Below, one piece after another: positions 22,987 through 36,077 of a stretch of 37,538 nt of DNA. The notes beneath the pieces were generated by a model, which worked only from the letters and a program-made list of their open reading frames with translations, did not search any database and was not told the DNA's origin. The position numbers and the translations under genes are program-made. This stretch comes from Blastococcus sp. (lineage in GTDB: Bacteria; Actinomycetota; Actinomycetes; Mycobacteriales; Geodermatophilaceae): NCBI GenBank assembly GCA_025465355.1, contig JAODNN010000059.1:1-37538 (forward strand), written 5' to 3'. Within the stretch, counting starts at the first letter, position 1, and each line of letters begins with the position of its first letter.

Positions 22987-23002
22987 CCGCAACCGTTTGC
23001 CG
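22987..23002. promoter_or_regulatory. LacI-type operator A (auxiliary, upstream)
   Basis: CCGCAACCGTTTGCCG, 14 of 16 identical to the reverse complement of operator B, with the central CG. It lies about 350 bp upstream of operator B and about 375 bp before livK, with no gene of its own. The rest of the roughly 510-bp interval 22866-23376 holds only the livK promoter and operator B. Confidence 0.5.
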
Positions 23003-23294
23003 TCAGTCATTGCCCACCGGGCCTGCCGCGGCTTCCCGGCCGCCGGAGAGCCGGAGCTCCGCCACCAGTCGGCGCCCGACCGGCCGAAGGTCACGATTCG
23101 ATCACCGCGGCCGGCCGTGGCGCGACGTCTCCGCGGTCGTTCGGTGGACAGATGTGCCGGAACTCGGCGCATTCTCACGTTCGAGCAGTGGTCGACGGCG
23201 GCACTTTTTCACCGAAAGACAGCTCCTGACTACTCTCCGTATTCAGCCCAGCTCGTCCCGTACGAGACCGCCGCGACGGATGTGGCGAGGTCCC

Positions 23295-23324
23295 TTGACA
23301 CCTGTGAGGCGAACCACACAGGAT
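23295..23324 (+). promoter_or_regulatory. sigma-70-like promoter of the ABC transporter operon
   Basis: TTGACA (23295-23300), 18-nt spacer, CAGGAT (23319-23324). Operator B begins 11 nt after the -10, so a bound repressor would cover the transcription start. Confidence 0.5.
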
Positions 23325-23335
23325 TGCCGCCACGT

Positions 23336-23351
23336 CCGCAAACGATTGCGG
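23336..23351. promoter_or_regulatory. LacI-type operator B
   Basis: CCGCAAACGATTGCGG: 6-bp perfect arms around ACGA with a central CG, the typical architecture for LacI/GalR regulators. It sits between the promoter and the livK start. The same core recurs at 33134, 34309 and 35092. Confidence 0.65.
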
Positions 23352-23376
23352 CGGTTGGATCGGGAACGGAGCTTCG

Positions 23377-24639
23377 ATGGCGAGGCAGCACGATTCTGGG
23401 AACTTCGCACGCCACGCACGGTCGGTCACACCGATCCGGGCGATCGCGACCGGCGTAGCCGTCCTTCTCGCGGTAGGAGCCTGTGGCACCGCCCCGAGCA
23501 AGACCGCCGCGGCGGACAACAGCAAGCCACTGGTGGTCGGGATCTCGCTGCCGCTCACCGGCGACTTCTCGCAGCCCGGTGGCGAGGCCCGCAAGGGCTA
23601 CGAGATCTGGCGAGACCAGGTCAACGCGGACGGTGGTCTGCTCGGCCGGAAGATCGAGCTGAAGATCACCGATGACGCCAGCAACCAGGACACCGTCGTC
23701 ACCGACTACACGAAGCTGATCACCCAGGACAAGGTCGACCTGCTGCTCGGCACCTTCTCGACGCTCCTGAACTTCCCGGCGTCCGCGGTCGCCGAGAAGA
23801 ACAAGATGCTGTACGTGGAGCCCGCCGGCGGTGCGCCGAAGATGTTCGACCGCGGCTTCACCAAGCTGTTCTTCGCCCAGCAGGCGACGGCGTCGCACCA
23901 GCCGGATGTCTTCGTCGACTACATCAAGAGCCTGCCCGAGTCGGAGCGGCCCAAGACCGCGGCCTACCCGACGCAGGACGACCCGTTCACCACCCCGGTG
24001 ATCGAGTCCATGCAGAAGCAGCTCGAGGCGCTCGGCGTCAAGACGGTGTACACGACCACGTACCCGGCCGACGCGACCAACTTCCAGACGATCGCCAGCG
24101 CGATCGCCGCGAAGAAGCCCGATCTGATCGCCCAGGGCGCGGTGTTCGAGGACGGCGTCGGTCTCGTCCGCTCGCTCCAGCAGCTCAACTACACGCCGAA
24201 GGTGCTCTTCCAGACGTCGGCACCGAGCAACGCGGGCCAGTACAGCGACGGCATCGGGAAGGCCAACACCGAGGGTGTCTTCTACACCGTCAGCTGGAAC
24301 GAGAAGGCGAAGACCCCCAACAACGCCGAGTTCGTCGCCGAGTACGCCAAGCGGTACAACGGCGGGATCCCGGCGGAGGACGCCGCCGACGCCTACGCGG
24401 CCGCGCAGGTGGTCCAGGCCGCCGCGAAGGCGGTCGGCAAGATCGACCAGGACGCGATGGCCACGTGGCTGCACGCGAACAAGGTGGAGACCATCCTCGG
24501 CACCCTCGCCTGGGACCAGACCGGTGCCCCGACGTCGCAGTTCCTGCTCGCGCAGTGGCAGAACGGTGCACCCGAGGTGGTGGCACCCAAGGAGGCCGCC
24601 ACGGTGGACAAGGTCGTCACCAAGACGCCCTGGCAGTGA
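23377..24639 (+). CDS. ABC transporter substrate-binding lipoprotein, branched-chain amino-acid (LivK) family
   Basis: A 420-residue lipoprotein. The signal region ends in a lipobox LAVGACG with Cys36 as the lipid anchor. The mature part is a type-1 periplasmic-binding fold: LVVGISLPLTGDFSQPGG, GYEIWRDQVNADGGLLGRKI, DLLLGTFSTLLNFPASAVAE, MLYVEPAGG and a C-terminal VETILGTLAWDQTG. Members of this family outside true Leu/Ile/Val transporters often bind aromatic acids, urea or amides. It heads the importer operon and lies under two LacI-type operators. ATG 23377 is preceded by CGGAG 6 nt upstream. A strong hairpin after the gene probably gives it extra mRNA stability over the permease genes. Confidence 0.9.
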   Translation: MARQHDSGNFARHARSVTPIRAIATGVAVLLAVGACGTAPSKTAAADNSKPLVVGISLPLTGDFSQPGGEARKGYEIWRDQVNADGGLLGRKIELKITDDASNQDTVVTDYTKLITQDKVDLLLGTFSTLLNFPASAVAEKNKMLYVEPAGGAPKMFDRGFTKLFFAQQATASHQPDVFVDYIKSLPESERPKTAAYPTQDDPFTTPVIESMQKQLEALGVKTVYTTTYPADATNFQTIASAIAAKKPDLIAQGAVFEDGVGLVRSLQQLNYTPKVLFQTSAPSNAGQYSDGIGKANTEGVFYTVSWNEKAKTPNNAEFVAEYAKRYNGGIPAEDAADAYAAAQVVQAAAKAVGKIDQDAMATWLHANKVETILGTLAWDQTGAPTSQFLLAQWQNGAPEVVAPKEAATVDKVVTKTPWQ

Positions 24640-24645
24640 CATGTT

Positions 24646-24679
24646 GCCCGGTGGCCCGTGTTCGCACGGGCCACCGGGC
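24646..24679 (+). terminator. intercistronic hairpin (15-bp stem, UUCG loop) between livK and livH
   Basis: GCCCGGTGGCCCGTG pairs perfectly with CACGGGCCACCGGGC around a TTCG tetraloop, starting 6 nt after the livK stop. No T-run follows and the operon continues, so it fits an attenuator or 3' stabiliser that raises binding-protein levels over permease levels. Confidence 0.7.
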
Positions 24680-24721
24680 GCCTCTGCGCCTGGCGCACCC
24701 TGAACTCCGGAAGAGGACTGC

Positions 24722-25603
24722 ATGACCCAGTTGGTCCAGGCACTGGTGCTCGGCTTGCTGATCGGCGGCGTCTACGCGCTGATGGCAAGCGGGCTGACGC
24801 TGATCTTCGGCGTCATGAACATCATCAACGTCGCCCACGGGGCGTTGCTCATCCTCGTCGCATTCCTCACGTGGAAGACCTGGTCGGTCACCGGAATCGA
24901 CCCGATCCTGCTGGCCGTCGTGATGACGCCGCTGATGTTCGGCGTCGGCTGGCTGCTCTACAAGGGCGTGCTCTCGCGCATCAGCGGCAGCTCACCCGGG
25001 ATGTCGGTGCTGCTGACGTTCGGTATCGCGATCACCATCGAGGGCATCCTGAACGTCACGGCGGGCAACAAGTTCCGGTCCGCGACGCCGTCCTACTTCT
25101 CCCAGTCCTTCCGGATCCTCGGCATCTCGCTGCCCAAGGCGCAGGTGTACGGCTGCATCGCCGCGGTGCTCGTCCTCGGCCTGCTGTACGTCGTGCTCGC
25201 GAAGACCTGGACCGGCCGCGCGATCCGGGCGACCGCGCAGAACCCGTCCGGCGCCGCGCTCATCGGCATCCAGGCCTCCGGCGTCGCCGCGCTCGCGTTC
25301 GCGATCGGCACCGCCACGACGGGGGTGGGGGGATCGGTCCTGTCGGTCTTGTACCCCTTCTTCCCGGCGTCCCACTACGACTGGATCTCCCGGCTGCTCG
25401 GGATCATCGTCCTCGGTGGCATGGGCAGCCTCGCCGGTGCGCTCGTCGGCGCGATCGTCCTGGGGCTCGCCGAGACGCTGACCGCCACCTACGTCTCCCT
25501 GCAGTGGTCCACCCTCATCTTCTACGCGGTGATCATGATCGTCCTGCTCTTCCGTCCGCAGGGTCTGTTCGGATCGCGGCTCCGTCAGGACGTGATGGCA
25601 TGA
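24722..25603 (+). CDS. ABC transporter permease, LivH type
   Basis: A 293-residue, about 8-TM permease. Family marks: LLIGGVYALMASGLTLIFGVMNIINVAHGAL at the start, the coupling region TGRAIRATAQNPSGAALIGI (EAA-like loop contacting the ATPase) and IIVLGGMGSLAGALVGAIVLGLAE near the end. It forms the channel with the LivM half of the next protein. ATG 24722 follows GGAAGAGG. Its TGA overlaps the next ATG (ATGA, 25600-25603), so the two membrane subunits are translationally coupled. Confidence 0.92.
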   Translation: MTQLVQALVLGLLIGGVYALMASGLTLIFGVMNIINVAHGALLILVAFLTWKTWSVTGIDPILLAVVMTPLMFGVGWLLYKGVLSRISGSSPGMSVLLTFGIAITIEGILNVTAGNKFRSATPSYFSQSFRILGISLPKAQVYGCIAAVLVLGLLYVVLAKTWTGRAIRATAQNPSGAALIGIQASGVAALAFAIGTATTGVGGSVLSVLYPFFPASHYDWISRLLGIIVLGGMGSLAGALVGAIVLGLAETLTATYVSLQWSTLIFYAVIMIVLLFRPQGLFGSRLRQDVMA

Positions 25604-27486
25604 CGACGCTCGGCCGCATCCGCGCGCTGACCAGTGGTCGCTCCGGCCGGCTGGTCCCGTTGCTGCTCTTCGTGGTGCTCGTCGGGTACCCGGTCGTGTT
25701 CCCGTTCGCCATCTACGAGCAGGGTGTGCTGCTGCTCGCCTTCCTGCTGGCGCTGATGGCCGTGAGCTGGAACATCGTCTCGGGCTTCGCCGGCTACGTG
25801 TCTCTGGGGCACAGCGTGTTCCTCGGCCTCGGCGCCTACACCGGCGGTCTGCTCGCCGAGCACTTCCAGGTGAACCCGCTGTGGTTCATGCCGGTGGGCG
25901 GCCTCGTCGCCTTCGTCGCCGCCACGCTCGTCGGCATGGTCGTCCTGCGCGCCCGGGGCCACGCGTTCGTGATCATCACGATCGCCCTGCTGCTGGCGAT
26001 GCAGGTGCTGGTCAACAACTTCTCGCAGGTCACGCACGGCTCCAACGGCGTCAACGTGCCGTTGCCCACGTGGTCGTCGGACTACCAGAACATGCCCTTC
26101 TACTACATGTTCCTGGCGCTGCTGGCCGCCACGGTCGGCTTCGCGGCCTGGGTCCGCCGGACCAAGTTCGGCACCGGCCTGCTGGCGATCCGCGAGGACG
26201 AGGACAAGGCCGCCGCCATCGGGGTCAACACCACGCGCTACAAGGTGCTCGCCTACGCGGCCAGCGCGGTCCCGATCGGTGTGGCCGGCGTCGTCTACGC
26301 CTACTTCCTGTCCTTCCTCAACCCGATCGGCGCGTTCAGCCTGCTGACCAGCGTGACGATCGTGCTGTCGGCCCTGCTCGGTGGCCGGGGCACGCTCTGG
26401 GGGCCGGTGCTCGGCGGCTTCGTCGTCACGATCGTCACCGAGGTGGCCAACGTCTACGGCGGGGGAACGGACAGCCGACTGCTCGTCCTCGGGCTCGCGC
26501 TCGTCCTCGTCGTGCTCTTCCTGCCGCGAGGTGTCCTGCCGGCCATCTCGGCGCGGCTGGCCCGTCGCCGGGCGGCTGCGCAGACCGTCGAGTACACCGA
26601 CCAGGCGGGTGTCGCGAGCGCGCGGACGCCGATCGTCGTCTCGCCCCGGTCGGCGCCCGCGGCCCAGACGCCGGGACGCACGGCGGCCCCGCTGCTCGAG
26701 ATCCGCGGCGCGGCGAGGAGCTTCGGCGGTCTCAGGGCCGTGGACGGCGTCGACCTCACCGTCGAGGCCGGTTCGATCACCGCGCTGATCGGTCCGAACG
26801 GCTCCGGGAAGACGACGCTGTTCAACCTGGTCACCGGCGCGATGTCGCTCGGCAGCGGCGAGATCTGGTTCGACGGCACCCGCATCGACCAGCTCCCGCC
26901 GTGGGAGCGCGCCCACCTGGGCCTGGGCCGCACGTTCCAGATCACCCGGCTGTTCAAGAGCATGACGGTTCTGGAGAACGTCGTGGCCCCGCTGCCGACG
27001 GCTGGCTGGGGACTCATGGCGAAGGACGCCGTCAGCGGCCACGAGGCGGAGCGGGCGCGCGAGCTGCTCGACTTCGTCGGCCTCGGCCGCTTCGGGGCGC
27101 AGCAGGCCGGGTCGCTCTCCTACGGGCAGCAGAAGCTGGTCGAACTGGCCCAGGTGCTCATGCTCGAGCCGAAGATGATCCTGCTCGACGAGCCGGCCGG
27201 TGGCATCAACCCGACGCTGATCAACCGGATGGTCGAGATCATCCGGGATCTGAACCGGCAAGGGATCGCCTTCCTCGTCGTCGAGCACAACATCCCGCTG
27301 GTCCTCGACCTGTGCGACCCCGTCGCCGTTCTCAGCCGGGGGCAGGTGATCGCCCAGGGGCCGCCGTCGATCGTGCGTGCCGATCCCGCGGTGCTCGAGG
27401 CGTACCTCGGCCCGGAGTGGCTGCCGGCCGACCCTGTTCCCGGCCCGGTCCTGAAGCCGGCCGACCTCTCCGTGAAAGGCGGCTGA
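25600..27486 (+). CDS. ABC transporter permease-ATPase fusion, LivM-LivG
   Basis: A 628-residue fusion. Residues 1 to about 320 are the LivM permease (SWNIVSGFAGYVSLGHSVFLG, GTGLLAIREDEDKAAAIGVN coupling loop, LLGGRGTLWGPVLGG). An Ala/Pro/Arg linker of roughly 45 residues follows. Residues about 365-615 are the LivG ATPase: LLEIRGAARSFGGLRAVDGV, Walker A GPNGSGKTT (398-406), LGLGRTFQITRLF, signature LSYGQQK (from 506), Walker B MILLDEPAGG and the H-loop VVEHN. In most importers these are separate genes; here membrane and nucleotide-binding subunits are one chain, paired with LivH and LivF. The start overlaps livH by 4 nt; livF begins 4 nt after its stop. Confidence 0.9.
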   Translation: MTTLGRIRALTSGRSGRLVPLLLFVVLVGYPVVFPFAIYEQGVLLLAFLLALMAVSWNIVSGFAGYVSLGHSVFLGLGAYTGGLLAEHFQVNPLWFMPVGGLVAFVAATLVGMVVLRARGHAFVIITIALLLAMQVLVNNFSQVTHGSNGVNVPLPTWSSDYQNMPFYYMFLALLAATVGFAAWVRRTKFGTGLLAIREDEDKAAAIGVNTTRYKVLAYAASAVPIGVAGVVYAYFLSFLNPIGAFSLLTSVTIVLSALLGGRGTLWGPVLGGFVVTIVTEVANVYGGGTDSRLLVLGLALVLVVLFLPRGVLPAISARLARRRAAAQTVEYTDQAGVASARTPIVVSPRSAPAAQTPGRTAAPLLEIRGAARSFGGLRAVDGVDLTVEAGSITALIGPNGSGKTTLFNLVTGAMSLGSGEIWFDGTRIDQLPPWERAHLGLGRTFQITRLFKSMTVLENVVAPLPTAGWGLMAKDAVSGHEAERARELLDFVGLGRFGAQQAGSLSYGQQKLVELAQVLMLEPKMILLDEPAGGINPTLINRMVEIIRDLNRQGIAFLVVEHNIPLVLDLCDPVAVLSRGQVIAQGPPSIVRADPAVLEAYLGPEWLPADPVPGPVLKPADLSVKGG

Positions 27487-27489
27487 CCG

Positions 27490-28266
27490 GTGCTGACCCT
27501 CTCGGGAATCTTTGCGGGATACGGCGGCGGTGACGTCCTCCAGGGCCTCGACCTCGAGGTGCCCACCGGAGCGATCACCTGCATCGTGGGCCCGAACGGG
27601 GCGGGTAAGTCCACCGTCCTCCGGGTCGTCAGCGGCCTGCTGCGGCCCCGCCTCGGAACGATCGAGCTGGACGGCACCCGCTTGGACCGGCTGGGCTGCG
27701 CCGGTGTGCTCGGCAAGGGGGTGGCCCAGGTGCCACAGTCCCAGGCGCTGTTCCCGCAGATGTCCATCCGGGAGAACGTGCTGCTCGGCGGGTTCACGCT
27801 CCGCCGTGACAAGCGGCTGCTGAACCAGCGCTTCGAGCGGGTGGCCGACCTCATTCCGATCGTGCGGGAGCGCAGCCACGACAAGGCCGGGAACCTCTCC
27901 GGCGGTCAGCGCCGCATGGTCGAGATCGCCCGCTGCCTCATGGTCGAACCGACCGTGCTCCTGCTCGACGAGCCGTCGCTGGGCCTGGACCCGATGAGTC
28001 TCACCGGCGTCTCCCAGCTCGTCCGGGACGCCAACGCGGCCGGGACGACTGTGCTCCTGGTCGAGCAGAACGTGCGCCTCGGCCTCAGCATGGCGACCCA
28101 CGGCGTCGTCCTCGAAGGGGGGCGGGTCCGGCTCGAGGCCCCGGCACACGAGCTGATGGCCAACCCGGAGGTCGCCGAGCTCTACCTGGGTGGGGCGCCG
28201 GCGACGCACGGTGCCGGCGCTCATCCCACGGTGCCGCAGCCGGTGGACAGCGGCACCGTCGGATGA
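27490..28266 (+). CDS. ABC transporter ATPase, LivF type
   Basis: A 258-residue ATPase: GYGGGDVLQGLDLEVPTGAI, Walker A GPNGAGKST (about residues 36-44), Q-loop VAQVPQSQALFPQMS, signature LSGGQRRMVEIAR, Walker B VLLLDEPSLGLDP and H-loop-equivalent LLVEQN (Gln instead of His, common in LivF). It pairs with the LivG half of the fusion. The last 20 residues (AHPTVPQPVDSGTVG) extend past the usual end. GTG start 27490; its TGA overlaps the ATG of the oxidoreductase gene (28263-28266), placing that enzyme in the importer operon. Confidence 0.92.
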   Translation: MLTLSGIFAGYGGGDVLQGLDLEVPTGAITCIVGPNGAGKSTVLRVVSGLLRPRLGTIELDGTRLDRLGCAGVLGKGVAQVPQSQALFPQMSIRENVLLGGFTLRRDKRLLNQRFERVADLIPIVRERSHDKAGNLSGGQRRMVEIARCLMVEPTVLLLDEPSLGLDPMSLTGVSQLVRDANAAGTTVLLVEQNVRLGLSMATHGVVLEGGRVRLEAPAHELMANPEVAELYLGGAPATHGAGAHPTVPQPVDSGTVG

Positions 28267-29816
28267 GCGACGGCAGCGCCGACGTCGTCGTCATCGGCGC
28301 GGGGCACAACAGCCTGGTCGGCGCGGCCTACCTGGCCGCGGCCGGGCTCGAGGTGGTCGTCCTCGAGGAGCAGCCGATCGTCGGCGGCAACACCGTCACC
28401 GAGGAGCTGACCCTCCCGGGGTTCCAGCACGACTCCTGCTCGAGCGCTCACGTGCTGATCCAGACGAACCCCGTCATCCGGGACGACGAGCTGGGGCTGC
28501 TGTCCACCCACGGGCTCCGGTACGTGCGCACCGATCCGGCCGTGGTGCTGCCGCTGCCCGACGGGGATGCCGTGGTCATGTCGCGGGACCGCGCCGAGAC
28601 GGCGGCCGAGCTGGCGCGCTGGGACGCCGCCGACGGTGACGCCTACCTGCGGCTGCTCGCCGACTGGGAGGGCGGCCTGTCCGCGGCCCACGGACGCTGG
28701 AATGCCGGGCGCCTCGACCCGGCTTCCTCCGGCGACGACGCCCGTTACGAGGCGCTGCGGTCGCGCACGGCGCACGAGGTGATCGCCGAACGGTTCGCGT
28801 CGGACCGTGCGCGGGACCTGCTGACGTGGCTCTCCTTCGCCACCATCACCGATCCGCGTCGTCCCGGCACCGGGATCCTGCCGTTCTCCATCACCGCCGG
28901 CCGGTCGCAGTTCGGCTGGGCGACCCCGATCGGCGGGTCCGGCGCGCTGCCCGCGGCGCTGGTCGCCTCGATCGAGTCGCACGGCGGTCGGGTGCTCGTC
29001 GATCGGCCGGTCGAGCGTGTGCGGGTGGAGAAGGGACGTGCGGCCGGCGTCGTGACCGCCGGCGGCGAGCACTGGGAGGCGCGCCGCGCCGTCCTCTCCT
29101 CGGCGCACCTCACCCAGCTGGCCGGGATGCTCGACGGCATCGAGCCACCGGCCGAGCTCCGCCGCGCGGCGGAGAGCTGGCGCTCGGGGCTGACCCTGTT
29201 CGCCGTGCACATCGCGACAGAAGGGCAGCTCGTCTACGACACGCAGAAGGGCCCCCTGCCCGCGGTCGCCGGGGGCATCGGCTCGGCGGCCGGCCTCTAC
29301 GCGCAGCTCGATGCCTTCGCGCGCGGCCAGACGTACGCCGTCGACCCGTGGGTGCTCATCGTCTGCTCGACGGTCGTGGACCCCGACCGCGCACCGGACG
29401 GCCATGGTCTGGCGAAACTGCTCACTTTCGCCCCGCGGAACCTCGCCGGGGGAGGGAGCTGGGAGACGGAGCGCGACCGCTACGCCGCGCAGCTCGTCGA
29501 GCGGACGGCGGAGCTCGTCCCGGGGCTCCGGCCCGATCAGCTGCTGGCAGTGCGCGGCGAGGCGCCGGTCGATCTCGAGCGGCGCAACCGGCACAACGTC
29601 GGCGGGTCCTGCCACGGCGGGGAGTTCCTGGGCGCCTCCGGTGAGGTGCTCGTCGGCTGGCCCTCGTACGGCCTGCCGGTTCCCGGGCTGTACCAGACCG
29701 GCGCGACGGCGCACCCCGGTGGCTCCGTCTCCGGCCGGGCCGGCCGGAACGCCGCGCGAGCCGTGCTCATCGACCTCGGGATCGATCCGGCCACCGTCAT
29801 GGGCCCCGGCGGCTAG
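28263..29816 (+). CDS. FAD-dependent oxidoreductase, phytoene-desaturase (CrtI)-like
   Basis: A 517-residue flavoprotein of the amine-oxidase/CrtI superfamily. The N-terminal dinucleotide motif VVVIGAGHNSLVGAAYLAAAGLEVVVLEE is at residues 8-37, followed by QPIVGGNTVTEELTLPGF. The C-terminal FAD-closing motif GLYQTGATAHPGGSVSGRAGRNAA is near the end. It probably oxidises, desaturates or isomerises a hydrophobic substrate in the cytoplasm. No carotenoid genes are present, and the ATGA overlap with the importer ATPase indicates it acts on the imported compound. It ends in a CTAG shared with the convergent LacI gene. Confidence 0.85.
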   Translation: MSDGSADVVVIGAGHNSLVGAAYLAAAGLEVVVLEEQPIVGGNTVTEELTLPGFQHDSCSSAHVLIQTNPVIRDDELGLLSTHGLRYVRTDPAVVLPLPDGDAVVMSRDRAETAAELARWDAADGDAYLRLLADWEGGLSAAHGRWNAGRLDPASSGDDARYEALRSRTAHEVIAERFASDRARDLLTWLSFATITDPRRPGTGILPFSITAGRSQFGWATPIGGSGALPAALVASIESHGGRVLVDRPVERVRVEKGRAAGVVTAGGEHWEARRAVLSSAHLTQLAGMLDGIEPPAELRRAAESWRSGLTLFAVHIATEGQLVYDTQKGPLPAVAGGIGSAAGLYAQLDAFARGQTYAVDPWVLIVCSTVVDPDRAPDGHGLAKLLTFAPRNLAGGGSWETERDRYAAQLVERTAELVPGLRPDQLLAVRGEAPVDLERRNRHNVGGSCHGGEFLGASGEVLVGWPSYGLPVPGLYQTGATAHPGGSVSGRAGRNAARAVLIDLGIDPATVMGPGG

Positions 29817-30883
29817 CGGGAGGGGGGAGCGGTCGAGCCGCGGACGACGAGGCTCACCGGCAGGAGAACCACGCGCGCGGTCGGTGTGCGGCCGCTGAGC
29901 CGGTCCAGGAGCAGGCGCGCGGCCTCCACGCCGAGCTCGTACTGCGGCACCCGGACCGACGTCAGTGGGGGCCGGAGCCGGGAGACGAGCGGCATGTCGT
30001 TGAAGCCGACGACGCTGACGTCGTCCGGACAGCGGAGCCCCGACTCCTCGAGCGCGTCGTAGCAGCCGATCGCGAGCAGGTCGTTCCCGGCGACCACGGC
30101 CGTCGGCGGTTGTCCGGCCAGAAGCTCGAGCGCGGCCGTGCGCCCCGCCGCTTCCGAGTAGCTGTCGGCCACGACGATGCGGTCGTCCGGCAGTCCGTGG
30201 TGCTGCATCGCGCTACGGAAGGCGCGTAGGCGGACGGCGCCGGTGGAGACGGTGAGCGGTCCGGCGACGTGCGCGATGTCGCGGTGCCCGAGCTCCACGA
30301 GGTGGTCGATGGTGCGCGCGATACCGGTCGCGTCGTCGCCGGCCACCACCGAGGCGTCCAGGTGCTCGGTCTGCCGGTTGACCAGCACCATGGGCACGCC
30401 GCGCTGGGCCGCTTCGTGCACGAGCGGGTCGTCCAGCAACGCGGTGGCGATGATGAAGCCGTCGACCTGCCGGGCCTGCATCACCGCGAAGCTCGACGCC
30501 GTGCGCGCCGGGTCGTTGTCCGTGTTCGCCGTGAGCGCGGTGTACCCGGCCTCGGCCAGCGCATCCTCGATGCCCCGCACGATCGGCGGGAAGAGCGGGT
30601 TGGTCAGGTCGGGGACGAGCACTCCGACCGTCTCCGAGCGGCTGGTCTTCAGGCTGCGGGCGATCGGGTTGACCTGGTACCCCAGAGCGGCCGCGACCTC
30701 GCGCACTCGCTCCACGGTGGCCGGCCGCACAAGGACGCGGGTGGCCTCGTTCAGCGCCCGGGAGGCGGTCGCGGGGTGGACGCCGGCGGCGGTCGCGACG
30801 TCGCGGAGCGTCGGACGTGGGGCCACGGCCGGGAGCGTATGCGGGGACGCTGAGAAATTGGCGGTGGGGCGCCGGGAGGTCAT
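29813..30883 (-). CDS. LacI/GalR-family transcriptional regulator
   Basis: A 356-residue repressor. Residues about 24-80 form the DNA-binding head: PTLRDVATAAGVHPATASRALNEA (HTH), then YQVNPIARSLKTSRSE with the hinge helix whose Leu inserts at a central CpG. Residues about 85-356 are the periplasmic-binding-like effector domain (VGVLVPDLTNPLFPPIVRGIEDAL, VVGFNDMPLVSRLRPPLTSV). ATG 30883 follows AAGGGG and overlaps the stop of the MFS gene (ATGA), so it is the last gene of the binding-protein-MFS-regulator operon. The palindromes with central CG at 22987, 23336, 33134, 34309 and 35092 are its most likely operators (inference). The ligand is probably the island's substrate or an early intermediate. 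Confidence 0.92.
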   Translation of the reverse strand: MTSRRPTANFSASPHTLPAVAPRPTLRDVATAAGVHPATASRALNEATRVLVRPATVERVREVAAALGYQVNPIARSLKTSRSETVGVLVPDLTNPLFPPIVRGIEDALAEAGYTALTANTDNDPARTASSFAVMQARQVDGFIIATALLDDPLVHEAAQRGVPMVLVNRQTEHLDASVVAGDDATGIARTIDHLVELGHRDIAHVAGPLTVSTGAVRLRAFRSAMQHHGLPDDRIVVADSYSEAAGRTAALELLAGQPPTAVVAGNDLLAIGCYDALEESGLRCPDDVSVVGFNDMPLVSRLRPPLTSVRVPQYELGVEAARLLLDRLSGRTPTARVVLLPVSLVVRGSTAPPSR

Positions 30884-32076
30884 CAACGTCCCCTTCGTGT
30901 CGTGAGATAGGTACGACGGGTGACCGCCGAGACGGCGGTCAGGGGAACGAACAGGACGGCGGAGAGCGCAAAGAGCGGGCCGTAGTGGCCGGCGCCCGCG
31001 AACAGGCCGCCCAGGGCGGCGCCGGTGGAGCCGCCCAGGAACAGGCAGGCCGAGAACAGGGGCACGACCTGCGCCCGTGCCTGCGGCGCAACCGACGTCG
31101 CCCAGGTCTGCAGGGTCGAGTGCATGAAGGCCCAGGCTGCGCCGAGCAGCACGCACGCGGCGACGCCGGCAACGAAACCGCGCTGCACGGCGAGCACACC
31201 GAAACCCAGCACGCCGCAGACCCCGCCGATCACGAGCAGCGTGGGGGTCGTGAGGCGGGCTGAGAGCGGCCGCACCACGCGGCTGAAGCCGAGGACGGCG
31301 ATGCCGTAGACGGCCACGACCGTGCCGGCGAGCCCGGCCCCCGCGCCGGTGGCGTGTTGCACCCCCGGTGCCACGAAGGTGAACGAGCCGGTGAGCGCCG
31401 CGCCTTCGACGAAGGCCAGCAGGAGCACGAGCAGTACCCAGCGGTTCGCCGCCGCCTTCGCGAGGGCCCGCACGGGGCGGCGCTGAACCGGTTCGCGGGC
31501 GGGCTCGGGAAGGCGGCGCAGGTAGAGGGCCAGACCGGCGCTCGCCAGGGCCGTCGCCGCGAACATGACGCGCCAGGTGGCCAGCTCGGCCACCCAGCCC
31601 GCGGCCACGGTGGCGACCGCCATGCCGACGGCGACACCGGCCATCAGGTCCGTCAGCGGCTGTTGCCGCCGCTCGACGGGGACGGTGGCACCGACGTACA
31701 CGAGCGTCGCCGGCACGGCCCCGCCGAAGAAGCCTCCGGCGAAGCAGCGCAGTACGGCGAGCACGCCGACGCCGGGGGAGAGGGCGGAGAGTGCCCCCGC
31801 CGCGGCGGCGCCGAACAGGGACACGCGCAGCGTGCGGATCGTGCCGAGCCGGGCCGAGACGATGCCCCAGACCGGCTGGAGCAGCCCGTAGCTGAGGTAG
31901 TAGAGACTGGCGGCAACGGTGACGGCGGCGACGGAGCGGTGCAGGTCCGCCGCCATCACCAGCAGCATCGGCGCCACCGCAGACCGGTCCAGCATGCTGA
32001 CGGTGTTGACCGCCTGCAGCGCCCGCAGGTGCCCGCGCGGAAGGTCGGTCGGAACGGCCGTCTCGGTTCCCGTCAT
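30883..32076 (-). CDS. MFS transporter
   Basis: A 397-residue, 12-TM major-facilitator protein. The loop after TM2 is a loose motif A (WGIVSARLGTIRTLR); TM4-TM5 reads GGAVPATLVYVG...GVAVGMAVATVAAGW and the second half contains LGGSTGAALGGLFAGAG. It resembles uptake or efflux carriers of the AraJ/YnfM-like group. It lies between the binding-protein-like gene (15 nt upstream) and the LacI gene (4-nt overlap), so it should carry the island's substrate or a product. Direction of transport cannot be told. Confidence 0.88.
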   Translation of the reverse strand: MTGTETAVPTDLPRGHLRALQAVNTVSMLDRSAVAPMLLVMAADLHRSVAAVTVAASLYYLSYGLLQPVWGIVSARLGTIRTLRVSLFGAAAAGALSALSPGVGVLAVLRCFAGGFFGGAVPATLVYVGATVPVERRQQPLTDLMAGVAVGMAVATVAAGWVAELATWRVMFAATALASAGLALYLRRLPEPAREPVQRRPVRALAKAAANRWVLLVLLLAFVEGAALTGSFTFVAPGVQHATGAGAGLAGTVVAVYGIAVLGFSRVVRPLSARLTTPTLLVIGGVCGVLGFGVLAVQRGFVAGVAACVLLGAAWAFMHSTLQTWATSVAPQARAQVVPLFSACLFLGGSTGAALGGLFAGAGHYGPLFALSAVLFVPLTAVSAVTRRTYLTTRRGR

Positions 32077-32091
32077 CTCAGGATCGCCACG

Positions 32092-33003
32092 TCAGGTGCG
32101 GGACGGCCGGATCAGCCCGCCGCCGGGACGCGCCAGCGCGCTGAGGTCGTGGTCCTGTTCGAAACCGCCCTGCTCGGCGCGCAGGCGCAGCACCGACTCG
32201 AACGCCGCCGGCTCGACCCCGCCGCCGACGCACAGGCCGTGCTCCGGGTCGAGGAGCGTCGCGTACATCTGCTCGGCGGTCTCCCGGTCGGTGTCGGGCT
32301 GTGCCTCGAGCAGGGACAGGACGTCCTCCCGGCGTTCCGGGGCCACGACGGCGCGTTCGGCCTCGTCCCAGGCGTCGAGCAGCGCGGCGACCGCCGGGGT
32401 GTCGACGTCGCCCCGGGTGGCCAGCACCGAGCCGAGGTAGGGGCGGATCACGTCGCTGACGGTCCCGAGCAGCTGTGCCCCCGCGCGGATCGCGCGCGTC
32501 TCGTGCCCGGCGTTGAGCAGCGTGGCCTCGAAGTCACCGTCGGCGAGCGACTGCCGGCGGCGCGGCGTCGAGCCGGCCGTCACCACCGTGTAGTCGCGGC
32601 CCGGCTCGAGGCCGGCGCTTCGGAGCAGCGCGAAGCCGACGTAGGCGAAGCCCGACGTCGGGACGTCGACCCCGAACCGGCCGCCCGCGAGGTCCGCGAG
32701 CCGGTCGACACCGGGCCGCCCGACCAGCGACAGCCGGCCACCGCGGTCGACCGCGCGCAGGATCTGCAGATCCAGCCGCTGCCCCAGCGGATTGCCCTTG
32801 TTGAGCACGTAGGTGGCGACGTTGTCGGGGGACGTGAGCACCACGTCGTACTCGCCGGCCATCAGCGACCTGAACTGCTGGGGGGACGACGTGACGGGGA
32901 TCTGCTCGACGGCGAGGTCGTGCGTGGCGAACGTGCCGTGCCGCTCGGCCCAGCTCGCGACGACGTTGGCACTGAAGATGCCGAGCCGGAGGGGCTGCGT
33001 CAT
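32092..33003 (-). CDS. substrate-binding-fold protein (NMT1/SsuA-like) without signal peptide
   Basis: A 303-residue protein with the type-2 periplasmic-binding fold: LRLGIFSANVVASWAERHGTFATHDL, EYDVVLTSPDNVATYVLN, RLSLVGRPGVDRLADLAGGRFGVDVPTSGFAYVGF and a Gly-rich segment GLCVGGGVEPAAFE. It has neither a signal peptide nor a lipobox: the very strong AGGAGGAA 5 nt before ATG 33003 fixes a start immediately before the fold. No matching permease/ATPase genes are nearby. It may therefore be a cytoplasmic ligand-binder or an enzyme; 4,5-dihydroxyphthalate decarboxylases share this fold. First gene of the operon with the MFS and LacI genes. Confidence 0.75.
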   Translation of the reverse strand: MTQPLRLGIFSANVVASWAERHGTFATHDLAVEQIPVTSSPQQFRSLMAGEYDVVLTSPDNVATYVLNKGNPLGQRLDLQILRAVDRGGRLSLVGRPGVDRLADLAGGRFGVDVPTSGFAYVGFALLRSAGLEPGRDYTVVTAGSTPRRRQSLADGDFEATLLNAGHETRAIRAGAQLLGTVSDVIRPYLGSVLATRGDVDTPAVAALLDAWDEAERAVVAPERREDVLSLLEAQPDTDRETAEQMYATLLDPEHGLCVGGGVEPAAFESVLRLRAEQGGFEQDHDLSALARPGGGLIRPSRT

Positions 33004-33104
33004 GGCTTTCCTCCTGTCGTCGAGGCCGGCGGGAGCCACCTACCGGGCGCCGGTGGGCGTACCTCTCGTCGGGATCGGGCTCCCGTCGTGGACGTTCGTC
33101 GTCA

Positions 33105-33133
33105 TTGACAACGACCCGATGCTGCCTGAGCAT
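33105..33133 (+). promoter_or_regulatory. promoter of the C-C hydrolase gene
   Basis: TTGACA (33105-33110), 17-nt spacer, GAGCAT (33128-33133; weak -10). Operator C follows without a gap. The minus-strand promoter of the binding-protein operon probably also lies in 33004-33150, with TTGCAA of the operator as a possible -35. Confidence 0.4.
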
Positions 33134-33145
33134 GCAGTCGTTTGC
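33134..33145. promoter_or_regulatory. LacI-type operator C (divergent intergenic region)
   Basis: GCAGTCGTTTGC, reverse complement GCAAACGACTGC: one base from the core of operator B. It sits between the divergent hydrolase gene and the operon that encodes the LacI protein, allowing control of both and autoregulation. Confidence 0.55.
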
Positions 33146-33171
33146 AAGACACCGCTGACCCGGGAGAGTGC

Positions 33172-34230
33172 ATGGACGAGAGAGTCGCGAGCGCGGTGCG
33201 GAACTGGGCGCCACGCTTCACCACCAACGGGGTCGCGGTGGCGGACTTCCAGCGGGTCACCTCCGGTCTCGAACGGTGGGACGACTGGTGCTCGGCGTGG
33301 TCGGCCGCGGCCGAGGTGCACGAGGATCTCGGCCGTGAGGCGCTGCGGGAGGGGCGGACCCGGTCAGCCGGCGCGCACTTGTCGACGGCAGCGGTCTACT
33401 TCCACTTCGGCAAGTTCCTGTTCGTGGACCATCCGGACGAGATGCGGGTGGCGCACCAGCGGGCGGTCGCCTGCCTGACCGACGCGCTGCCCTACCTGGA
33501 CCCGGCGGGGGAGCGGATCGAGATCCCCTTCGAGGGCAGCCGGATGGTGGGGATCCTCCGCCGGCCGAGCGGGTCGGGGCCGCACCCCGTCGTCGTCATG
33601 GTGCCCGGCCTCGACTCGACCAAGGAGGAGTTCCGGTCGACCGAGGCGCTGTTCCTCGAGCGCGGGCTCGCGACCTTCTCCGTGGACGGTCCCGGGCAGG
33701 GCGAGGCCGAGTACGACCTGCCGATCCGCGGCGACTGGGAGGTCCCCGGACAAGCCATCGTCGACGCTGTGGCCGCCCAGCCGGGCATCGATCCCGAGCG
33801 GATCGGCGTCTGGGGCGTCAGTCTCGGCGGGTATTACGCACCGCGCCTGGCCAGCGGGGTCGAGCAGGTGCGCGCGTGCGTCGCACTGGCCGGCCCCTAC
33901 AACTTCGGGGAGTGCTGGGACCAGTTGCCTCCGCTGACGCGCGCCGCCTTCACCGCACGCTCGTTCAGCACCGACCAGGAGCAGGGTCGCGAGCGGGCGC
34001 TGGAGCTGGACCTGAGCTCCGCGGCCGCGCGGATCCGGGTCCCTCTGCTCGTCGTCGCCGGAAAGCAGGACCGGCTCATCCCGTGGCAGCACGCCGAGCG
34101 GCTGGTGGCCGAGGCGGGCGGCCCGACGGAGCTGATCATGCTCGAGGACGGCAATCACGGGAACATGAACGTCGCCGCCAAGCACCGGTACAAGACGGCG
34201 GACTGGATGGCCGCGCAGCTCGCCGGGTAA
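33172..34230 (+). CDS. alpha/beta-hydrolase, 2,6-dihydroxypseudooxynicotine hydrolase-like C-C hydrolase
   Basis: A 362-residue enzyme with a helical N-terminal lid (about residues 1-125) and an alpha/beta core. Nucleophile Ser217 in GVWGVSLGGYYAPR, Asp300 in VVAGKQDRLIP and His329 in EDGNHGNMN form the triad; an acidic residue lies at 247 (NFGECWD). As I recall, 2,6-dihydroxypseudooxynicotine hydrolase of Arthrobacter nicotinovorans, a β-ketone C-C hydrolase of similar length, has its triad at the same numbers; that match needs checking. The oxyanion region is VMVPGLDSTKEEF. It probably cleaves a C-C bond next to a keto group, though esterase activity is possible. ATG 33172 follows GGGAGAG. 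Controlled by operator C. Confidence 0.85.
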   Translation: MDERVASAVRNWAPRFTTNGVAVADFQRVTSGLERWDDWCSAWSAAAEVHEDLGREALREGRTRSAGAHLSTAAVYFHFGKFLFVDHPDEMRVAHQRAVACLTDALPYLDPAGERIEIPFEGSRMVGILRRPSGSGPHPVVVMVPGLDSTKEEFRSTEALFLERGLATFSVDGPGQGEAEYDLPIRGDWEVPGQAIVDAVAAQPGIDPERIGVWGVSLGGYYAPRLASGVEQVRACVALAGPYNFGECWDQLPPLTRAAFTARSFSTDQEQGRERALELDLSSAAARIRVPLLVVAGKQDRLIPWQHAERLVAEAGGPTELIMLEDGNHGNMNVAAKHRYKTADWMAAQLAG

Positions 34231-34308
34231 GAACTCAGCGGACCAACTCGGCGGACCTGCCTGGGCTCGTGACGCCCGCGTGAGACCCCGTGATTCCCGG
34301 CCGAAGAA

Positions 34309-34320
34309 GCAATCGATTGC
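34309..34320. promoter_or_regulatory. LacI-type operator D
   Basis: GCAATCGATTGC is a perfect 12-bp palindrome with the central CG, 79 bp before the next start codon. No clear -35/-10 pair is visible near it. Confidence 0.6.
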
Positions 34321-34399
34321 GGCGACATCTCCCGGTGCGCCGTCTGCACCGATCCCGTTGACTGCCGCATCGACGCGGCGCAACCTCCTGGAGGAAGCC

Positions 34400-35035
34400 A
34401 TGGGCACCAACCGCATCAGCTACGTCCCGCTCGAGGAGATGGACGAGCGCATGCAGGACGAGATGCACCGCTGCGCGCGTGAGGGGACGCCGCGACCGGA
34501 GAGCTCCGCGGTGCGGGCGCACGCGCCTCACGCGTTCTGGGCCTTCGCCGATTCCTGGAAGTCGTTGTTCCACGGCGGGGTGTGCGACCACGCGATCAAG
34601 GAGCTGTGTCGCGTTTACATCTCGCGGACGGTGAAGTGCGAGTTCTGTGGCAACCAGCGGTCGATCAAGGCGGCGGCGAGCGGGCTCGAGGAGCAGCAGT
34701 ACGACGAGCTGCTGAATTTCGAGCGCTCCGAGAGGTACGACGACCGGCAGAAGGCGGCGCTGGCCTATGCCGAGGCGATCGCCTGGCGGCTCGAGCCCTC
34801 CGACGAGCTCTGGGACCGGCTGCACCGGCACTTCTCCGAGCCCGAGCTGGTCGAGCTCGGCTGCTGCATCGCGCTCACCTTCGGGCAGCAGAGCTGGATC
34901 CGGCTGCTCGGGATCGACCACCACGAGTACCTGGCCGGCACCGACGCGTCGATGGCACCGGGTTTCCGCAGCGCTGAGGAACTGGCCGCCAGCAAGGCCG
35001 CGGCCGACTACTGGGCGGCCGGCACCGACCGCTGA
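34400..35035 (+). CDS. carboxymuconolactone-decarboxylase-family (AhpD-like) protein
   Basis: A 211-residue helical protein. The family core is at about residues 55-100: KELCRVYISRTVKCEFCGNQ with the CxxC of AhpD-like proteins, followed by RSIKAAASGLEE. The His that follows CxxC in AhpD is Arg here (CGNQRS), as in many uncharacterised relatives. A second all-helical part follows (ELVELGCCIALTFGQQSWIRLLGID). Possible roles are peroxidase-like redox chemistry or a lyase/decarboxylase step. ATG 34400 has GGAGGAA 4 nt upstream. It has its own operator (D). Confidence 0.82.
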   Translation: MGTNRISYVPLEEMDERMQDEMHRCAREGTPRPESSAVRAHAPHAFWAFADSWKSLFHGGVCDHAIKELCRVYISRTVKCEFCGNQRSIKAAASGLEEQQYDELLNFERSERYDDRQKAALAYAEAIAWRLEPSDELWDRLHRHFSEPELVELGCCIALTFGQQSWIRLLGIDHHEYLAGTDASMAPGFRSAEELAASKAAADYWAAGTDR

Positions 35036-35063
35036 TCGGCGTCCCGCGATGCCCCGGGGTTCC

Positions 35064-35091
35064 TTGACACCGGGTGTGCTCGCACTAGGCT
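35064..35091 (+). promoter_or_regulatory. promoter of the dehydrogenase-M24 operon
   Basis: TTGACA (35064-35069), 16-nt spacer, TAGGCT (35086-35091). Operator E starts at the very next base, so repressor binding would block the transcription start. Confidence 0.6.
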
Positions 35092-35103
35092 ACAAACGAT
35101 TGC
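35092..35103. promoter_or_regulatory. LacI-type operator E
   Basis: ACAAACGATTGC, 11 of 12 identical to operator B's core, directly downstream of the -10 and 26 bp before the start codon at 35130. Confidence 0.6.
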
Positions 35104-35129: not shown

Positions 35130-36077
35130 ATGACACGTACGGACCTCCCAGCCCTGACCGTCGGCTGGATCGGCACCGGCCACATGGGCGGTGCGCTCGC
35201 CGGACGCATCGGTCGCGCAGGCATGGATCTCACGGTCTGGAACCGCACGCGCAGCAAGGCCGAGCCCCTGATGAAGGTCGGCGCGAAGGTGGCCGACCAC
35301 CCGTCGGAGCTGGCCGACCGCGACGTCGTCTTCACGATGGTGTCCACCTCGGCCGACCTCGAGCAGGTCATCGGTCAGCTGCTGAGTGACCCCGAGCGGT
35401 CGCCGCGCATGATCGTCGACTGCTCGACGGTGTCCACCGAGGCCTCGGCCCGGGTCCGCGCGGTTGCCGAGGAGCGCGGGGCGGCCTTCCTGGCCTCGCC
35501 GGTGAGCGGCAACGGCAAGGTCGTGGCGGCCGGCATGCTGAGCCTGGTCTGCTCGGGCCCGCAGGAGGCCTTCGACGAGGTCGCCCCGGTCCTGGACCTG
35601 CTGGGCCGGCACGTCACCTACGTCGGTGACGGCGAGAAGGCCCGGCTCGTGAAGATCTGCCACAACATCCTGCTGGGTGTCGTCGCGCAGAACCTCGCCG
35701 AGATCACCGTGCTCGCCGAGAAGGGCGGGGTGTCCCGTGCCGCGCTGCTGGACTTCATCAACAACAGCGTCATGGGCTCGGTCTTCTCCAAGTACAAGTC
35801 GCCGGCGTACGTGAACCTCGACTTCACGCCGACGTTCACGCCCGTCCTGCTGCGCAAGGACCTCGACCTCGGGCTGCGCGCGGCCGACGAGCTCGGCGTC
35901 CCGATGCCGGTGACCTCGGCGGCGCGTGAGCCGGTCCAGGCGGCGATCGCCCAGGGGCGGACGACGGAGGATTTCGCGGTGCTGCTGGAGCTGCAGGCTC
36001 GCGCCTCGGGGCTGGAACTGGTGTCCGAGGACGTCGCGGTCGACGACGGCCTGGGCGCGGCGGACGAGGGGCACTGA
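35130..36077 (+). CDS. NAD(P)-dependent oxidoreductase, 3-hydroxyisobutyrate dehydrogenase family
   Basis: A 315-residue β-hydroxyacid dehydrogenase. The N-terminal Rossmann motif VGWIGTGHMGGALAGRIG lies at residues 11-28, followed by VWNRTRSKAEPL. DCSTVSTEASARV and ASPVSGNGKVVAAGML form the substrate loop. The catalytic Lys is in ARLVKICHNILLG, and the C-terminal helical domain contains PVLLRKDLDLGLRAADELG. The usual K-x-x-x-N reads KICHN, so the catalytic pair is kept. It oxidises a β-hydroxyacid to the semialdehyde, or the reverse. The M24 gene follows after 2 bp. ATG 35130 may be read with GGAUGAGG upstream. Confidence 0.9.
   Translation: MTRTDLPALTVGWIGTGHMGGALAGRIGRAGMDLTVWNRTRSKAEPLMKVGAKVADHPSELADRDVVFTMVSTSADLEQVIGQLLSDPERSPRMIVDCSTVSTEASARVRAVAEERGAAFLASPVSGNGKVVAAGMLSLVCSGPQEAFDEVAPVLDLLGRHVTYVGDGEKARLVKICHNILLGVVAQNLAEITVLAEKGGVSRAALLDFINNSVMGSVFSKYKSPAYVNLDFTPTFTPVLLRKDLDLGLRAADELGVPMPVTSAAREPVQAAIAQGRTTEDFAVLLELQARASGLELVSEDVAVDDGLGAADEGH

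Follow-up and report, generated by a model that had tools for sequence, protein, structure and literature searches.

The LacI-type protein encoded at 29813-30883, on the minus strand of the 37.5-kb stretch of Blastococcus DNA analysed here (the window), would repress a multi-operon regulon, made up of the island around its gene and of satellites on other contigs, through the palindrome GCAAWCGWTTGC. We give this reading, taken as a whole, a probability of about 0.8. A dimer of the regulator would bind the palindrome at the -10 box or immediately behind it, blocking transcription until a small molecule released the repressor; the likely candidates for this molecule are the compound taken up and its early breakdown products. 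The island targets would be an importer, an FAD oxidoreductase, a DHPON-hydrolase-like enzyme, an AhpD-like protein and a dehydrogenase-M24 pair; the satellite targets would be two importers (contigs C185 and C71), an M24 protein (C169) and two Amidohydro_3 genes (C6 and C19).

A pattern scan of the window located this CG-centred palindrome at all five places where LacI-type operators had been predicted, with 0-1 mismatch each. Operator 1 (GCAACCGTTTGC, 22989-23000) is distal, 376 bp before the importer gene, and operator 2 (GCAAACGATTGC, 23338-23349) lies 13 bp behind a -10 box; the 16-bp ranges originally given for these two enclose the cores. Operator 3 (GCAGTCGTTTGC, 33134-33145) abuts the -10 box of the hydrolase promoter and also lies upstream of the divergently oriented regulator operon, 130 bp before its first gene. 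Operators 4 (GCAATCGATTGC) and 5 (ACAAACGATTGC) are at 34309-34320 and 35092-35103, the latter abutting a -10 box. All five are intergenic, as proposed, given ATG starts at 33172 (hydrolase) and 34400 (AhpD-like gene); longer mechanical ORFs with TTG or GTG starts overlap several of them. As claimed, a TTGACA promoter stands directly before three of the copies, operators 2, 3 and 5. All three promoters are on the plus strand: that of the importer operon (23295..23324) has TTGACA, 18 bp and CAGGAT, that of the hydrolase (33105..33133) TTGACA, 17 bp and GAGCAT, and that of the dehydrogenase-M24 operon (35064..35091) TTGACA, 16 bp and TAGGCT. No TTGACA promoter was seen in this genome at operators 1 and 4; CTTGACA precedes operator 4 in all six aligned relatives.

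At up to one mismatch there is no sixth copy in the window, and the motif is indeed absent from coding DNA and from the first 22.9 kb, as had been noticed; at two mismatches this breaks down, one extra copy appearing in coding DNA at 19521. At up to three mismatches the single pattern shows no excess in the window (21 matches against a shuffle mean of 16.9, reached by 22 of 100 shuffles), and the signal is therefore confined to near-exact palindromes, which are far above controls: a scan of the whole genome gave 17 near-exact places against 1 for the reversed pattern. The Poisson probability of five sites in 37.5 kb is about 5e-8 with the rest of the genome as background and about 5e-12 with nine regulator-less congeners, values that are optimistic because the pattern was written after the sites were seen. 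Likewise, the site matrix is partly circular, its sites having been chosen at up to one mismatch.

The operators are conserved in related genomes, as a regulon would demand. In alignments of orthologous Geodermatophilaceae clusters, operators and promoters are retained while the flanking DNA has diverged. All five operators stand at the same places in G028, G031, G035 and G036, and fewer are conserved in other clusters, where contigs end or genes differ. Operator 2 and both boxes of its promoter are invariant across seven aligned genomes. The 12-mer of operator 1 is identical in five of six aligned relatives, G031 having a one-base variant; operator 3 is kept in seven relatives, differing there at positions 4 and 5, operator 4 has counterparts in the same interval in six, and operator 5 is kept in six. 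Conexibacter, which has a regulator orthologue (57-58% identity) and four intergenic sites, carries GCAAACGTTTGC as its version of operator 5, a type of core that is common in the LacI family; PurR/MalR-type GCAAACGTTTGC sites share the core palindrome but serve other regulators and genes. The spacings between operators 1 and 2 (349, 361, 272, 342, 370, 361 and 352) do not follow one helical phase, and strictly phased looping between the two is therefore unlikely.

Genes were called with a simple GC3-based script in place of a trained gene finder. On the plus strand, the importer operon encodes a branched-chain-type (HAAT) solute-binding protein (23377..24639; PF13458), a LivH-type permease (24722..25603; NCBIfam UrtB/LivH, below cut-off), a LivM permease fused to a LivG ATPase in one frame (25600..27486; of its 628 residues, 102-313 match UrtC and 363-604 match LivG), a LivF-type ATPase (27490..28266; profile match) and a CrtO/amine-oxidase-type FAD oxidoreductase (28263..29816; profile matches). 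The fusion frame has full-length tblastn matches, 87% identical, in relatives. The regulator operon, on the minus strand, comprises the regulator gene, an MFS transporter (30883..32076; PF07690) and, as its first gene, an NMT1/SsuA-fold protein (32092..33003), recognised by profile and by a fold search of its model, with a start read from sequence and no obvious signal peptide. This model (pLDDT 76.3) matched the whole SsuA/ThiY/Thi5 fold class, which leaves room for both a binding protein and an enzyme, and therefore no substrate follows.

Beyond it, again on the plus strand, comes an alpha/beta hydrolase (33172..34230) whose closest solved relative, aligned over most of its length, is 2,6-dihydroxypseudooxynicotine hydrolase (2jbw, 148.7 bits); no other part of the nicotine pathway was seen here. 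It is followed by an AhpD/CMD-like protein (34400..35035; PF02627 just under cut-off; 2ijc, 2o4d), a beta-hydroxyacid dehydrogenase of the HIBADH superfamily (35130..36077; PF03446, PF14833) and an M24-fold protein (36080..37336; PF00557). The last shares the fold and most of the usual ligand positions with DddP and with creatinase/prolidase-type M24 proteins, but has Cys at what we take to be one of the metal-ligand Asp positions, and scores 98.1 bits against a cut-off of 600 with the DddP model NF043017. Its GYRTCYYRT stretch recurs in G002, G031, G036 and Conexibacter (row cre_G033, in a wrong frame, was left out of the alignment). A nicotine-like ring, DMSP, a creatine- or ectoine-like amide and the thiamine pyrimidine were considered as substrates; behind each lies only distant similarity, and none was adopted.

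The regulator itself matches PF00356 (40.7 bits, cut-off 27) and PF13377 (151 bits), that is, a LacI-type helix-turn-helix and a ligand-binding domain, in keeping with its original assignment. An AlphaFold model of it, built from 8 sequences with a mean pLDDT of 47.4, was set aside. Thirty-four further homologues, 49-61% identical, were found in 32 genomes of Actinomycetota, some with a stop counted inside the match that was neither read through nor mended. All 31 members measured have a DNA-binding domain lengthened by a two-residue insertion: the stretch from the recognition helix to LGY has 25 residues in each of them and 23 in 21 of 22 other LacI proteins, the one exception, L026, being the sister of the subfamily in the tree. 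The helix mostly reads GVHxxT[AV]SRALN. In the tree, 35 members fall on one branch (support 92/95, under the tool's star); L150, L153 and L155, three of the 34 loci, are not in it, and the row labelled L151_sub_7972 is in fact another LacI protein, unrelated to the subfamily. Both tree and insertion suggest an actinobacterial LacI subfamily, recognisable by this insertion, of which the window regulator is a member.

The operator recurs with the subfamily. It is present at 32 of the 34 loci, exactly at 24 of them, and absent from L141 and L151; the loci hold 83 sites, against a mean of 4.08 for 59 permuted palindromes, none of which reached 83. Counted on whole flanks, 26/34 subfamily genes have a site no further than 1.5 kb away, against 2/26 of the remaining LacI genes in those genomes, and in a set of 38 loci 91 of 100 sites fell outside the genes of the simple finder. 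As to autoregulation, the regulator gene itself stands directly behind a site at 10/32 loci. The seven close orthologues of the window regulator have none within 1.5 kb. The operators at these loci adjoin cassettes that also occur in the Blastococcus genome: in G706, G120 and G523, those of C71 and C185 have sites and a subfamily regulator next to them. Since the phylum as a whole retains the operator, with varying cassettes behind it, regulator-less cassettes could join one resident repressor. We tentatively extend this to a phylum-wide LacI subfamily with an extended DNA-binding domain, whose near-constant operator would act as a plug-in address through which newly gained, regulator-less breakdown modules for various nitrogenous or ring-bearing compounds come under one resident repressor and make up a network with a non-sugar inducer, a generalization that is possible, if somewhat less than evenly favoured.

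Within the genus, the seven genomes with the regulator (one of them a fragment) among the 16 compared have 7-17 sites and the nine without it 0-3. Much of this contrast is the island itself.

The original prediction described a regulon around the island. The five copies in the island are confirmed, but the regulon is probably not confined to them, as seven further copies precede genes on five other contigs. These encode, on C185, a second branched-chain-type importer, whose solute-binding protein is only 39% identical to that of the island; on C71, in one operon, an SsuABC-type importer and two LVIVD proteins; on C169, an M24 protein that lacks some metal ligands, differing at three of what are presumably the five usual ligand positions; and, on C6 and C19, the two Amidohydro_3 proteins. 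The proposal of a single substrate is weakened because the operator is carried by three different ABC importers, as well as by both Amidohydro_3 genes and by M24 proteins of two kinds. Site C71:58111 falls where the solute-binding protein gene begins, and G706 has one at the same place; coding conservation may explain this, because the peptide RNRLL is common to both. Most Blastococcus relatives have few convincing satellites, and so wide a regulon may therefore be peculiar to this genome.

It is rather unlikely that the regulator controls the island only and that the satellites are governed by further LacI-type proteins with the same operator, or by one that the assembly lacks. In G034 an exact site precedes a different LacI-type gene (39% identity), and the motif is therefore not exclusive to the regulator; another subfamily member could be absent from the assembly, which is 95.35% complete, and no LacI gene was found on the satellite contig stretches, whose cassettes have a subfamily regulator of their own in the three genomes named above. 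However, among the eight LacI-type genes of the genome only the window regulator has a GCAAWCGWTTGC site on its contig stretch (stretches as fetched); the other seven have none within 1.5 kb, one of them having a different palindrome, TTGCAACGTTGCAA, and in G033 operators also precede the orthologues of the C169 and C6 genes. The presence of those seven genes, together with the frequent likeness of LacI motifs noted in a LacI survey (PMC4052901), could suggest that one of them is the main binder. This is very improbable: the sites track the island regulator in the genus and its homologues in the phylum, not the other LacI genes.

We also regard it as improbable, though less so, that this is a LacI regulon of the ordinary sugar type whose enzymes have been misread. 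The nearest NCBIfam models of the regulator are RbsR, CytR and UriR, the dehydrogenase family includes tartronate semialdehyde reductases, and in the same survey carbohydrate regulators make up 176 of the 182 LacI groups to which a pathway was assigned, Actinobacteria being under-represented (PMC4052901). But the regulator scores far under the three cut-offs (230.3 vs 382, 217.5 vs 436 and 204.5 vs 550 bits), and the window genes are unlike ribose or nucleoside operons. The regulated genes include HAAT, SsuABC and family-5 importers, M24 and Amidohydro_2/3 proteins, a DHPON-hydrolase relative and AhpD-like proteins, a content that, judged from families, looks non-carbohydrate and points to a non-sugar substrate. 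Chance repetition, to which the lack of excess at three mismatches might lend colour, is practically negligible, being contradicted by the footprints, the dependence on the regulator and the permuted controls.

The multi-operon regulon of the preferred reading resembles the LacI regulons of RegPrecise in its LacI helix-turn-helix and sugar-binding-type domain, its sites before operons and its several operons per regulator; the even palindrome with a central CG, by which the family is defined there, is found in the window near operon promoters (PMC4052901). It differs in its gene content, of a kind rare among LacI regulators (PMC4052901), in the two-residue insertion and in a phylum-wide operator with changing cassettes; the carbohydrate transport and breakdown genes usual in sugar regulons were not recognised in island or satellites, on the evidence of families. 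Footprints, co-occurrence and recurrence support a coherent regulon, and literature searches, with most subscription papers outside their reach, found no description of it. It is apparently undescribed, as had been supposed. Operator and protein signature together offer a handle for finding unannotated catabolic genes in actinobacteria, any gene behind the operator being a candidate for one pathway network, and a system in which to test whether a conserved operator can bring new modules into a regulon that is already in place.

Some remaining sites appear to lie outside the regulon. In this genome those of C102 and C113 are inside predicted genes, and those of C62 and C122 are outside them but have no TTGACA or recognised related gene; all four were treated as chance. 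Other remote sites examined in relatives are inside predicted genes or have no recognisable regulon gene, in a survey that left out several (e.g. G035 C26, G036 C222, G060 C83, C319 and C417, G031 C42:32543 and C47). One site, TCAAACGATTGC, is intergenic before an acyl-CoA dehydrogenase gene in G028, G031, G033 and G034; the block around it is conserved and also contains AACGGAG...CTCCGTT, and the site may belong to another regulator.

The LacI-type regulon around the regulator gene at 29813-30883 (minus strand) is real and conserved. The five operator cores of the original prediction, at 22989 and 23338 (sites 1 and 2, importer), 33134 (site 3, hydrolase), 34309 (site 4, AhpD-like gene) and 35092 (site 5, dehydrogenase-M24), were borne out in position, and all are intergenic given the likely gene starts. 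Loose matching of the motif in the window gave no excess, which appears only among near-exact palindromes. With one mismatch allowed, the pattern GCAAWCGWTTGC occurs at 17 palindromic places in the host genome (4.90 Mb in 195 contigs, 95.35% complete, the window being the entire contig C93), five of them in the window, against a single place for the reversed pattern, and the sites persist in the orthologous clusters of relatives.

Site 3 abuts the -10 element of TTGACA-17-GAGCAT, site 5 abuts that of TTGACA-16-TAGGCT, and site 2 follows the -10 element of TTGACA-18-CAGGAT at a distance of 13 bp. A protein bound at these sites would obstruct initiation or the early phase of elongation. No good -35 element goes with site 4 in this genome, and CTTGACA is found there in 6/6 aligned relatives. 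Site 1 stands 376 bp ahead of the importer gene, its position being kept among relatives and its spacing to site 2 variable.

Orthologues of the regulator (76-86% identity) were found in 7 of the 111 other family genomes searched; in G034, it is seen only as a fragment at a contig end. Syntenic clusters carry all five sites in G028, G031, G035 and G036, four in G033, three in G060 and in G002 (where one precedes a different importer), and two in G034. In aligned relatives, TTGACA and the operator are kept amid diverging flanks; positions 4 and 5 of the hydrolase site are variable, and alignment is poor in the AhpD region. Within the genus, the genomes with the regulator or its fragment (7/16) contain 17 (host genome), 8 (G028), 9 (G031), 9 (G033), 8 (G034), 9 (G035) and 7 (G036) sites, versus 2, 2, 0, 3, 3, 1, 2, 1 and 2 in the nine without it and 0-3 for reversed-pattern controls, the island itself accounting for much of the contrast and just two of the eight sites of G034 belonging to its broken cluster. 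Beyond the genus, G060 has nine sites (reversed control, 4) and G002 three.

The cluster has several further features. A single 628-aa frame (25600-27486) encodes a LivM permease fused to a LivG ATPase, with full-length matches at 87% in relatives. Relatives have an extra M24 gene (L030:10393-11469) separating the importer from the FAD oxidoreductase; the host genome lacks it at that place, and a gene on its contig C169, behind an operator of its own, is a 53% homologue. At the contig end (37432-37538), a frame starting MTTIRPAELAEETALGMYRTMTEIRLFEKRAYDLFL follows the M24 gene and reads like the start of a dehydrogenase E1 alpha subunit; the corresponding place is taken by an aldehyde dehydrogenase in G028 and G031.

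The regulon probably extends past the island. In the host genome, two sites precede a second complete branched-chain-type importer on C185; two others, on C71, precede an importer operon of the SsuABC type, after which two LVIVD-repeat proteins are encoded. A third, operator-like site on C71 (L001:8112-8123) overlaps codons 4-7 of the solute-binding protein gene within the operon, as it does in G706. The C169 site lies ahead of an M24 protein deviating at 3/5 usual metal-ligand positions, and C6 and C19 each have a site ahead of one Amidohydro_3 gene. The C19 frame (L004:4785-5489) stops early and departs from the C6 paralogue in the manner of a frameshift or an assembly error. In G033, too, sites lie upstream of the C169 gene's orthologue (89%) and the C6 gene's (68%); among the other 15 genus genomes, the thresholds used gave no close homologue of the C71 ATPase or of the C185 binding protein. 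None of the host genome's seven other LacI-type genes has a site within 1.5 kb. An operator adjoins a nitrile-hydratase-alpha-type gene (L002:6766-6777 and L039:7848-7859), and G034 apparently lacks the M24 gene that separates the operator from the phosphoglucomutase gene. A G060 site (L086:192-203), accompanied by a TTGACA-like sequence on the minus strand, faces outwards at the edge of a 3.1-kb contig, its target lying out of view. A conserved block, ACAACGGAGNGCAATCGTTTGA, which also contains the inverted repeat AACGGAG/CTCCGTT, lies ahead of a gene for an acyl-CoA dehydrogenase in each of four relatives (L044:5163, L045:8023, L046:1582, L189).

The regulator falls in what appears to be an undescribed subfamily. 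A tree of 61 rows puts 35 members on one branch, at 92/95 support. The stretch from recognition helix to LGY measures 25 residues in 31/31 measured members and 23 in 21/22 others, the exception, L026, being sister to the subfamily. The helix reads exactly GVHxxT[AV]SRALN in 21/34 homologues and varies in the others (e.g. GVDVSTVSRALN). These 34 further homologues (E <= 1e-80) come from 32 genomes of overlapping phylum (396) and class (394) samples. A site occurs in 32/34 of their loci, and an exact one in 24. Over 544,620 bp the loci hold 83 sites (38 exact); 59 permuted CG-centred palindromes average 4.08, their maximum of 32 coming from close motif variants. A site lies within 1.5 kb of the gene in 26/34 subfamily loci, versus 2/26 loci of other LacI genes in the genomes concerned; the figures are 1/4 for family matches at 42-46% and 0/7 for the close orthologues, whose sites stand further off. 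G034 has an exact operator (L040:10195-10206) in the interval that separates another LacI gene (39% identity) from a divergent MFS gene.

In a 38-locus set, 91/100 sites fall outside script-called genes, and the solute-binding-protein family immediately follows a site (at no more than 350 bp) in 15/15 loci, as the dehydrogenase family does in 10/10. Amidohydro_2 enzymes and family-5 binding proteins also follow sites in phylum loci; E1-type dehydrogenases are present, not directly behind one. The orthologue in Conexibacter (57-58%) has four sites, all intergenic, next to homologues of the FAD oxidoreductase, the M24 protein and the dehydrogenase. Cassettes that are scattered in the host genome have a subfamily regulator and sites next to them in other genomes. 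This is so for the C71 operon in G706 (67-82%) and G120 (41-64%), and for the C185 importer in G523 (75-84% over four genes). The dehydrogenase-M24 pair lies beside a subfamily regulator in G842, G522 and G731, accompanied by a site in the first two but not in the third.

What had been read as a coherent, apparently undescribed single-substrate regulon stands as a conserved LacI-type regulon, while the single substrate is unsupported. No carbohydrate-specific gene was recognised among the regulated genes. This content is unusual for the LacI family because, in PMC4052901, carbohydrate regulators make up 176/182 of the LacI groups that have an assigned pathway, and the named exceptions concern nucleosides and purines, plus a single antibiotic-related case. 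We infer that the network deals with nitrogenous or ring-bearing acids or amides. Judged by sequence, the window hydrolase is nearest to the C-C hydrolase of nicotine breakdown. The window M24 protein (36080-37336) resembles prolidases and DddP but has Cys where one metal-ligand Asp is usual, a replacement also kept in Conexibacter. Across the phylum, M24 is better conserved than the regulator where both are found (66-80% versus about 50-60%), two loci being at 37 and 55%.
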